Origin: Promethearchaeota archaeon
GTDB lineage: Archaea; Asgardarchaeota; Lokiarchaeia; Sigyniarchaeales; SOKP01
Reading direction: 5' to 3'
DNA length: 64,000 nucleotides
Assembly (NCBI GenBank): GCA_016839705.1
Contig: JAEOTR010000079.1
Coordinates: 1 to 64,000, forward strand
Part shown: positions 33,406 through 58,082 of the stretch, piece after piece
Position numbering within the stretch: the first letter of the stretch is position 1
Layout of the letters: every line of letters starts with the position of its first letter
The notes under the pieces: generated by a model
What the model saw: the letters and a program-made list of their open reading frames with translations, nothing else
What the model was told of the DNA's origin: nothing
Databases searched by the model: none
Position numbers and translations under genes: made by a program

Positions 33406-34674
33406 ATGGTAAATTTTAAAATTGCTGACGAAAATTTAGCAGAAAAAGGATTAGAAGCGTTATATGTTGCGGAAAACAAGATGCCGGTGACTGCTAAGGT
33501 TATTCGGGAGCGATTCGCAAAGGAAAAACCTTTGGAAGGCATAACTATTGCAGGATGCTTACATATAACTAAAGAAACTGCCAATCTAGCGCGAACCTTA
33601 AAAACTGGTGGTGCTGATGTTTGGTTATGTGGTAGTAATCCATTATCCACTCAAGACGATGTAGCTGCCGCTTTAGTAAAGGAAGATATCAATATTTTTG
33701 CATGGCACGGCAATACTGATGAAGAATTTTATTGGTGTATTCGTGAGTGTTTAAAAGCTAAACCTAATATCCTCATTGATGACGGGGCTGATATGATCGT
33801 TACAGCTCATAAGGAGTTTCCCGAATTAATAACTGATGGTGTAATCATAGGGTGTCAAGAAGAAACAACTACTGGTGTAAAGCGTTTTAAGGCAATGGAT
33901 GCAGCCGGAGATTTGAAAGTCCCTCTCTTCCCTGTAAATGATGCTCGATGTAAAAATCAGTTCGATAATGAGTTAGGAACCGGGCAAGGAATAGTGGCTG
34001 CAATCTATGGGATGCATGTGCTATTTGCCGGTAAGACCGTAGTAATTGCAGGTTATGGACATTGTTCTTCTGGTATGGCTTTAAGAGCTCGGGGATTGGG
34101 TGCTGATGTAATAGTGACTGAAATAGATCCGATTAAAGCTCTTCAAGCTAGATTTGCTGGTTTTCAGGTAATGCCAATTGAAAAAACACTCCCAATTGCT
34201 GACATAATCCTAACTGCTACAGGATGTAAGCATGTAATTCAACCATCAAAAGAGATGTTTGATAAACTAAAGGAAGGTGTTATCCTCGGTAATTTGGGTC
34301 ATTTTGACATTGAGATTCCCACTAAAGAATTGTATGAATATGCTAAGGAAATAAAACCTATCAGGCAGAATGTTGAAGAATTAATTTTTCCTGATGATAA
34401 AAGGATATATCTCCTAGCTAAAGGAAGATTAGCTAACCTGGTACTCTCTGAAGGACATCCTGCTGAAGTTATGGATATGTCATTCGGTCTTCAATCTTTA
34501 ATGTCCGAATTTATTGTCAAAAATAAAGATTTATTAAAACCAGGAATGGTTGATATACCTGTAGAGATAGATGACAGAGTAGGATTCCTAAAACTTCAAT
34601 CAATGGGTGTGGAAATAGATAAACTCAGTAAGGAGCAATATAATTATATCCACGGCTATGAAGAAGGAACCTAA
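33406..34674 (+). CDS. ahcY: S-adenosylhomocysteine hydrolase
   Basis: A 422-aa protein. It shows GITIAGCLHITKETANLART near residue 45, CGSNPLSTQDDVAAAL, and VNDARCKNQFDNELGTGQGI. The NAD site is VVIAGYGHCSSGMALRARG with the acidic partner VTEIDPIKA. It cleaves S-adenosylhomocysteine to adenosine and homocysteine, removing product inhibition from the many SAM-dependent methylations. The C-terminus ends near HGYEEGT, as in archaeal enzymes. AAAGTGA lies just before ATG 33406 and serves as ribosome-binding site. It is divergent from the Lrp/TBP-like regulator, with a 137-base shared promoter region. Confidence 0.95.
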   Translation: MVNFKIADENLAEKGLEALYVAENKMPVTAKVIRERFAKEKPLEGITIAGCLHITKETANLARTLKTGGADVWLCGSNPLSTQDDVAAALVKEDINIFAWHGNTDEEFYWCIRECLKAKPNILIDDGADMIVTAHKEFPELITDGVIIGCQEETTTGVKRFKAMDAAGDLKVPLFPVNDARCKNQFDNELGTGQGIVAAIYGMHVLFAGKTVVIAGYGHCSSGMALRARGLGADVIVTEIDPIKALQARFAGFQVMPIEKTLPIADIILTATGCKHVIQPSKEMFDKLKEGVILGNLGHFDIEIPTKELYEYAKEIKPIRQNVEELIFPDDKRIYLLAKGRLANLVLSEGHPAEVMDMSFGLQSLMSEFIVKNKDLLKPGMVDIPVEIDDRVGFLKLQSMGVEIDKLSKEQYNYIHGYEEGT

Positions 34675-49993: not shown

Positions 49994-50195
49994 GCCAAGG
50001 TGGCGTAGCCCGGTTCATCGCGTTAGAGCTCCTTATTGTAGGGTAAGAACGCACCAGATTCATCGGAGTTACCGATAAAGGTGAAACTGAAGATCTGGGT
50101 ATCGAGAAAAAATTGGGTCTCTTCGACCGTTTTCGGGAAGGTTCAAAAGAAAAACCCGCATTCGAGCTTTTTGGGAACTCCCTCCCTTGGCACCA
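49994..50195 (+). tRNA. tRNA-Phe (GAA) with four apparent introns, CCA encoded
   Basis: 202 bases that reduce to a standard tRNA-Phe of about 76 after removing four insertions. Acceptor GCCAAGG (49994-50000) pairs with CCTTGGC (50185-50191), followed by A73 and encoded CCA. D stem GCGT (50003-50006)/ACGC (50049-50052) encloses an insertion of about 31 bases. Anticodon stem CCAGA (50054-50058) and loop-stem CTGAAGA-TCTGG (50087-50098) are split by 28 bases at 31/32. T stem GAG (50104-50106) and GG (50140-50141) are split by 33 bases at 51/52 and pair with CCCTC (50180-50184). The T-loop holds about 31 extra bases. The anticodon is GAA. Intron borders are exact for 31/32 only if splicing follows the stem; others are approximate. 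Confidence 0.85.
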
Positions 50196-57672: not shown

Positions 57673-57806
57673 TGGGCCAGGCAGGATTCGAACCTGCGAC
57701 ATCCCAAAACGAAGTTCGCCGAAAAACGCCGAATTTGTCCGAAGCCGGGCACCCTTGCTGGTGTTTTCCATATTGGAAATAAAAATCCAGGCTAGATTAC
57801 AGGCCC
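57673..57806 (-). tRNA. tRNA-Arg (TCG) with two introns
   Basis: 134 bases on the minus strand. Acceptor GGGCCTG with CTGGCCC has one T-T mismatch; A73 follows and CCA is not encoded. D stem ATCT/GGGT encloses an insertion of about 28 bases after AGCCTGG. Anticodon stem CCCGG (57749-57745) pairs with TTGGG (57707-57703). The loop starts CTTCGG (anticodon TCG), with a canonical 37/38 insertion of about 30 bases (57738-57709). T arm GCAGG-TTCGAAT-CCTGC is intact. Inserts contain their own hairpin (TTTCC/GGAAA in the D-loop insert). Confidence 0.85.
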
Positions 57807-57975: not shown

Positions 57976-58082
57976 TGGCGCGGCTAGCGGGATTTTCTAA
58001 AAAGCTCGAAGGGAACTTTCTTTTGAACCCGCGTCGCAGGAGTGACAGTCCCGAATGCTAGACCGGGCTACACTATAGCCGC
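57976..58082 (-). tRNA. tRNA-Asp (GTC) with T-loop intron, CCA encoded
   Basis: 107 bases on the minus strand. Acceptor GCGGCTA/TAGCCGC, discriminator G and encoded CCA. D arm intact; anticodon arm CGGGA-CTGTCAC-TCCTG with GTC. T stem GCGGG (58032-58028) and CCCGC (57991-57987) enclose 36 bases instead of 7, so the T-loop carries a 29-base intron. The insert reads AAAAG...TTCGAGCTTTTT, matching the T-loop insert of tRNA-Phe at 50145-50178. The AAAAG/CTTTT helix is the expected central helix of a bulge-helix-bulge splice site. Confidence 0.88.

Follow-up and report, generated by a model that had tools for sequence, protein, structure and literature searches.

A T-loop intron type common to tRNA-Asp and tRNA-Phe and the probable spread of T-loop introns between tRNA isotypes in Lokiarchaeia

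In the first 64,000 nucleotides (nt) of contig JAEOTR010000079.1 (here the window), part of a Lokiarchaeia (Asgard) draft genome of 3.36 Mb and 93% completeness (G000), the transfer RNA (tRNA) genes for Asp and Phe each carry an intron at the same position of the T-loop, and the two introns share a specific sequence segment. Our analysis favours the reading that T-loop introns have spread between tRNA isotypes throughout this genus, and that the type found in the tRNA-Asp genes of G000 and its relative G013 came from the T-loop intron lineage of tRNA-Phe early in the history of the genus; we give this reading a probability of about 0.65. The nearest named records for one protein of the window were 'Candidatus Lokiarchaeota archaeon' bins, with 90-92% identity.

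The T-loop introns of tRNA-Asp and tRNA-Phe

The original prediction, made from the letters of the window alone, had proposed a shared insert at one T-loop position in tRNA-Asp and tRNA-Phe. Both genes were confirmed, and TTCGAGCTTTTT was found exactly in both and in the same register (Table 1). The tRNA-Asp gene, which ends in GCCA (discriminator G, then CCA), was not detected by ARAGORN in its unspliced form and was called tRNA-Asp(gtc) after removal of the 29-nt T-loop insert. Recognition of tRNA-Phe(gaa) was obtained once all four inserts of that gene had been removed, and keeping any single one left it undetected. As ARAGORN and the Rfam tRNA model (gathering cut-off) both missed the two genes as they stand, absence from such lists is uninformative. 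No second copy of tRNA-Asp or tRNA-Phe was seen in the genome searches made; each gene being the sole copy seen, both are presumably needed and spliced.

The T-arm of the tRNA-Asp precursor folds with -15.7 kcal/mol (z -3.7), and the whole precursor adopts the same fold. A 9-base-pair (bp) hairpin, AGAAAGUUC/GAGCUUUUU, with the loop CCUUC, lies inside the T-stem and a UUC/GAA helix with two 3-nt bulges, i.e. in a bulge-helix-bulge (BHB) arrangement. The AAAAG/CTTTT pairing noted in the original prediction is present, but it covers this hairpin incompletely. In the minimum-energy fold the bulges are AAA and AAU, and the fourth pair of the central helix is an A-A mismatch, the standard motif having a 4-bp helix and 3-nt bulges. 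Across 28 Asp and Phe genes, the pairs of the T-stem and of the central helix (TTCA/NGAA) were kept in 88.5% of cells, a value reached by none of 500 shuffles and by no slid version.

Intronless orthologs of tRNA-Asp and tRNA-Phe have the T-loop TTCAAAT, and tRNA-Arg(CCT) reads TTCAATT when intronless and TTCAAT...T in its intron-bearing orthologs. Because the intronless orthologs of these three tRNAs show an uninterrupted T-loop, the junction was set at 59/60, a position already recorded as an intron site in archaea (PMC4090602); for tRNA-Asp, a shift by 1 nt (58/59) yields an identical mature tRNA. Members of the splicing endonuclease family PF01974 were found in each of the 19 genomes of the genus, and 14 genomes had two paralogs, a number that would suit a two-subunit enzyme; the literature links heteromeric endonucleases to introns at unusual positions (PMC4090602). 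The Asp and Phe inserts would be BHB-type pre-tRNA introns, most likely excised by the tRNA-splicing endonuclease of archaea, with the exons probably sealed by tRNA ligase; that this occurs in the cell we infer from the sequences.

Only part of the likeness between the two introns is specific. The T-arm-with-intron model identified five T-loop introns in G000, in tRNA-Asp, -Phe, -Ser(GCT), -Thr(GGT) and -Val(TAC), all of which start with TTCRAAAAG or TTCAAAAAG, followed by AAA in four of the five. We rejected TTCAAAAGAAA, proposed earlier as the shared beginning of both T-loops, as a signature of the insert, given that its TTCAA is exon and its other letters recur in the T-loop introns of G000 generally. 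Likewise partly generic is the TTC that TTCGAGC takes from the hairpin loop: in about half of 82 T-loop introns this loop measures 5 nt, and UUC is its commonest ending. What remains specific is TTCGAGCTTTTT, which lies equally far from the 3' splice site in the two introns. Both GTTCAAAAGAAA and TTCGAGCTTTTT were exact in tRNA-Asp and tRNA-Phe and had no other mismatch-free match in the window, and in the whole G000 genome the pattern TTCRA-N6..32-TTCGAGCTTTT matched only these two genes. Outside the T-loop consensus the exons of the two genes are different, so that the likeness is confined to the intron. Differing exon sides had been described before as GCGGG/CCCGC in Asp against GAGGG/CCCTC in Phe; the difference holds, but the GAGGG of Phe is not contiguous, its 5' T-stem strand reading GAG, a 33-nt intron, then GG.

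The likeness exceeds what the BHB motif demands. For the five T-loop introns of G000, 2000 dinucleotide shuffles produced a shared run of at least 12 nt 6 times, and with 3000 shuffles preserving every hairpin base pair P was 0.0007; for the alignment score, structure-preserving shuffles gave P 0.010. When all Asp × Phe pairs were compared, the observed maximum was 16 nt, while 200 structure-keeping shuffles gave at most 12 (0/200). This run of 16 nt joins the Asp intron of G000 to the Phe intron of G004, i.e. the best match of the Asp intron is a Phe intron of another species. The four longest in-register cross-isotype runs among the 82 introns were all between Asp and Phe (16, 15, 14 and 12 nt); different-isotype introns with the same architecture usually have just 4-6 nt in common.

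Irrespective of isotype, NNUUC was the commonest form of the 5-nt loop among the 82 introns, which come from the genus and the family; it is a possible recognition or stability feature.

T-loop introns across the genus

Searching the 19 genomes with the T-arm-with-intron model gave at least about 75 matches (150 candidates scored per genome), most of them in recognisable tRNAs and representing at least about 20 isotype or anticodon classes, with isotypes assigned by eye from anticodon loops and some labels (Ile/Met-like TAT, Ser, Leu) possibly wrong. All intron counts are lower bounds from draft genomes, and the census of tRNA introns in G000 is incomplete. An alignment score of at least 13 was reached by 23 cross-isotype pairs, compared with a mean of 0.5 and a maximum of 2 under the structure-preserving null; the pairs are non-independent, as orthologs repeat, and reduce to a handful of look-alike sets, namely Arg(CCT)-Phe, Asp-His, Ile-Cys, Asp-Phe and a few weaker ones.

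The alignment of T-loop introns from G000 and its relatives, the check suggested along with the original prediction, favours spread, and TTCGAGC is seen again in the tRNA-Asp gene of G013 and the tRNA-Phe genes of G004 and G016. TTCGAGTTTT was found in tRNA-Phe of G018 and G012. Matches to TTCRA-N-TTCGAGCTTTT in the relatives were mostly not tRNAs, and a reversed-pattern control gave the same order of matches; by sequence, the true tRNAs were only those for Asp and Phe of G000, Asp of G013 and Phe of G004. No tRNA-Asp gene of G004 was found using GCATTCGGGACTGTC with up to 2 mismatches.

A second family of T-loop introns, GAGATTCGCCTTGRACGRATTCCGAAC, is common to tRNA-Arg(CCT) (loci L147 and L162, of G005 and G017) and to tRNA-Phe of different species (L099, L100, L103, L106, L108, L121). 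Its score of 19 over the whole intron exceeds that of the Asp-Phe pair.

A separate observation concerns the tRNA-Asp genes of the genus (L033-L062 and L191-L198). Their two acceptor-stem alleles (GCGGCTA and GCCCACA) and a highly conserved D-loop intron do not follow the species tree, a sign that tRNA-Asp genes may have been exchanged between species.

Origin of the tRNA-Asp intron

The Phe introns of G000, G004, G016, G018, G012, G003 and G006, and that of G019 from another genus, have a loop rich in C and T and, after it, TTCGAG, TTCGGA or a close variant. Among Asp introns this type was found in G000 and G013 only; elsewhere the intron is absent or has a different stem. The distribution, wide in Phe and limited to two genomes in Asp, suggests Phe as the likely donor and Asp as the recipient, and the neighbours of the Asp intron of G000 were the Asp intron of G013 followed by seven introns all from Phe, with no other Asp among them. 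Judging by the same intron type in the distant congener G013, the Asp event is not recent. A fresh copy within G000 was discarded as the simplest account, since the closest match lies between species and the within-genome excess is marginal. The earlier proposal that the intron spread by copying between tRNA genes is supported as regards spread, given some 20 classes and the excess of cross-isotype likeness; a recent event inside this genome is not supported.

The transfer was probably intron-sized. An excised intron may have been reverse-spliced into another tRNA offering the same TTCAA target, to be fixed by reverse transcription and recombination; a very short gene-conversion tract with GGTTCAA as its anchor would be another route. 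The shared borders consist of the T-loop consensus alone, in agreement with either route, be it insertion at a fixed target by reverse splicing or conversion over a very short tract.

Several results weigh against the explanation set out above. A tree of ten proteins grouped G000 with G003, G016, G007 and G014 but placed G013 together with G001 and G011, and a second protein separated the two groups likewise. With G000 and G013 not sisters, a single copying event needs several losses or horizontal transfer of tRNA-Asp, so that the Asp copy would be either old and often lost or passed between species with its gene. The T-loop intron is absent from tRNA-Asp of G014, G016 and G003, in the clade of G000, and from most of the other clade, where G013 has it, a pattern compatible with gain as well as with loss. 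In the intron tree (31 columns, introns of about 30 nt) a single clade of all Asp introns was not rejected by the approximately unbiased (AU) test (p 0.144), such introns being too short for a decision from their tree. Cross-isotype likeness was marginally higher within than between genomes (p 0.03 for the score, 0.29 for the longest run). The minimum-energy fold of the Phe T-loop intron of G000 is not a BHB, and a relaxed BHB is obtained only with the T-stem imposed. Finally, only one endonuclease subunit was found in the G000 draft (93% complete).

The alternative that survives best, and one compatible with the favoured explanation, is horizontal transfer of an intron-bearing tRNA-Asp allele between the lineages of G000 and G013 after a Phe-to-Asp copy in one of them. 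Intron included, the tRNA-Asp gene of G013 is 95% identical to that of G000, and acceptor-stem alleles and D-loop intron are spread over both clades. The flanks just outside the tRNA gene are nevertheless unlike in the two genomes (by eye), and the tRNA exons are nearly invariant and without tree signal; we regard such a transfer as a plausible but minority possibility. Somewhat less probable is old common ancestry, in which the family's ancestor already had similar T-loop introns in Asp and Phe, and G000 and G013 kept this form as other Asp introns diverged or were lost. Asp T-loop introns occur throughout the family, several with a YUUUC loop like that of Phe introns, and the AU result is in keeping with one Asp clade. 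However, several other Asp introns have a distinct and mutually similar stem, ATGTGYG/CRCACAT, not near the Asp introns of G000 and G013, many parallel losses would be required in the genus, and copying between isotypes would still be implied, merely at an earlier time.

Convergence appears improbable. It would reduce the likeness to what BHB and T-loop impose in an AT-rich genome: the TTCAA target, a purine-rich 5' arm, a pyrimidine-rich 3' arm and an NNUUC loop. The exonic TTCAA, the A/G-rich start common to the T-loop introns of G000 and the frequent UUC loop ends agree with this, and T-rich 3' arms raise the number of chance matches. Yet the shuffles, which kept the hairpin pairs and the 3' end, failed to reproduce the likeness, and neither the 23 high-scoring cross-isotype pairs nor the 4-6 nt usually shared by introns of equal architecture are in line with it. 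Equally doubtful, as an alternative to intron transposition, is local conversion between the tRNA-Asp gene and its linked neighbour, the tRNA-Phe gene: the two lie 8 kb apart on opposite strands in the window and close together in several genomes (e.g. G000, G003, G006, G012, G014), with GGTTCAA common at the left border, but their exons share nothing beyond the T-loop consensus, the best matches are between species and not inside one genome, and linkage is not established for the Arg-Phe, Asp-His and Ile-Cys look-alikes.

Known systems and further introns

Transposition of BHB introns between tRNA isotypes has been described in Thermoproteales (Fujishima et al. 2010, as cited in PMC4090602 and PMC4390854). 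There, as in Lokiarchaeia, the likeness is confined to the intron; in Lokiarchaeia, unlike in Thermoproteales, the look-alikes examined are all at one T-loop position, and their similarity is older as well as weaker, with about 70-86% identity over some 30 nt. The mechanism of intron movement is called unknown even for Thermoproteales in PMC4090602. Our data support a new instance of this known tRNA-intron transposition, centred on one T-loop site. The literature used here documents transposition from isotype to isotype in one order, Thermoproteales, to which the Lokiarchaeia, relatives of eukaryotes, would add; intron gain also becomes comparable within one well-sampled genus that varies in intron presence, absence and sequence. 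More speculatively, the T-loop introns may form a mobile population moving by reverse splicing at a fixed target among some 20 tRNA classes and between species, with BHB introns having also invaded the adenosylhomocysteinase gene described below, and Asgard archaea may be a second independent hotspot of BHB-intron mobility; we consider this extension unlikely as a whole.

In Atabeyarchaeia and Freyarchaeia (PMC11291895), Asgard tRNA genes mostly have introns, often several and often at non-canonical positions, as is the case here. That study reports abundance and position; intron likeness between isotypes, analysed here, was not noticed in the passages used. In Caldiarchaeum tRNA-Thr (PMC3293823), intron gain is polymorphic among close relatives, again as here. 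The gain there was by a mobile element, whereas neither a mobile element nor a tRNA fragment was noticed beside the Asp and Phe genes, where open reading frames were merely listed and no deep search was made.

Table 1. Positions of the tRNA genes, introns and related features
Feature	Position	Strand	Basis or remark
tRNA-Asp(GTC) gene, one T-loop intron	57976..58082	minus	spliced form called tRNA-Asp(gtc) by ARAGORN
tRNA-Asp exon 1 (nt 1-59, to TTCAAA)	58022..58082	minus	BHB; intronless orthologs with T-loop TTCAAAT
tRNA-Asp T-loop intron, 29 nt, AGAAAGTTCCCTTCGAGCTTTTTAGAAAA, BHB with 9-bp inner hairpin	57993..58021	minus	fold
TTCGAGCTTTTT, specific segment also present in tRNA-Phe intron 4 (covers 3' arm and some of the loop)	57999..58010	minus	
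tRNA-Asp exon 2 (nt 60 to 3' end)	57976..57992	minus	sequence; ARAGORN call of spliced form
tRNA-Phe(GAA) gene, four introns, 3' end ACCA	49994..50195	plus	ARAGORN after removing all four
tRNA-Phe intron 1, D-loop, 33 nt	50014..50046	plus	splicing in silico; relatives
tRNA-Phe intron 2, anticodon stem/loop border (about 31/32), 28 nt	50059..50086	plus	boundary ambiguous by 1 nt
tRNA-Phe intron 3, within 5' strand of T-stem, 33 nt	50107..50139	plus	splicing in silico; relatives
tRNA-Phe intron 4, T-loop (59/60; 1-nt shift possible), 31 nt	50148..50178	plus	has TTCGAGCTTTTT at 50161-50172
Further tRNA gene, D-loop and anticodon-loop introns	57673-57806	minus	anticodon TCG (Arg), by eye
Adenosylhomocysteinase gene of the window, without insert	33406-34674		ortholog
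Adenosylhomocysteinase insert in relatives, after codon 303	L252, L256, L259, about locus position 1410		

The tRNA-Phe gene contains four introns. For the second of them, a CACC/GGTG central helix can be seen by eye, and the minimum-energy fold does not give it. Four-intron tRNA-Phe genes were found in eight genomes of the family: G000, G016, G006, G013, G008, G015, G020 and G026 (loci in the relatives: L095, L096, L099, L103, L106, L110, L112). Multi-intron archaeal tRNA genes are known in which, as here, one gene has several BHB-type introns, some visible only after others have been removed (PMC8450103, PMC4390854). Those genes carry up to three introns, three being the maximum in a broad survey of archaeal tRNA genes (PMC8450103), compared with four in tRNA-Phe of G000 and seven relatives; no report of four introns in one archaeal tRNA gene was found in the open-licence literature searched. 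These genes, and the BHB-like intron in a protein gene described below, are by-products of the analysis that may matter more than the likeness between Asp and Phe.

Directly downstream of tRNA-Asp lies a further tRNA gene, with a D-loop and an anticodon-loop intron, that was missed by default scans. Standard tools miss many Lokiarchaeial tRNA genes, which calls for caution with tRNA lists.

A 32-nt insert with an in-frame stop interrupts the adenosylhomocysteinase gene in three Lokiarchaeia (ABR15, bin106 = G021 and LW60_5 = G011). It was found in 3 of 67 adenosylhomocysteinase loci, from at least two genera. The insert folds as a BHB (TATTGA/TCAATA, with AAA bulges), its hairpin stem shows a compensatory change from G-C to A-T, and removing it restores the frame of 422 residues; it is likely to be a spliced intron in a protein gene. 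According to a paper of 2020 (PMC7714728), an additional BHB intron of this sort had been reported before in archaea for the cbf5 mRNA alone. Two independent metagenome contigs (L254 and L258) end at about codon 304-305 of adenosylhomocysteinase, i.e. at the insert site, which could reflect variation in the presence or absence of the intron in the population.
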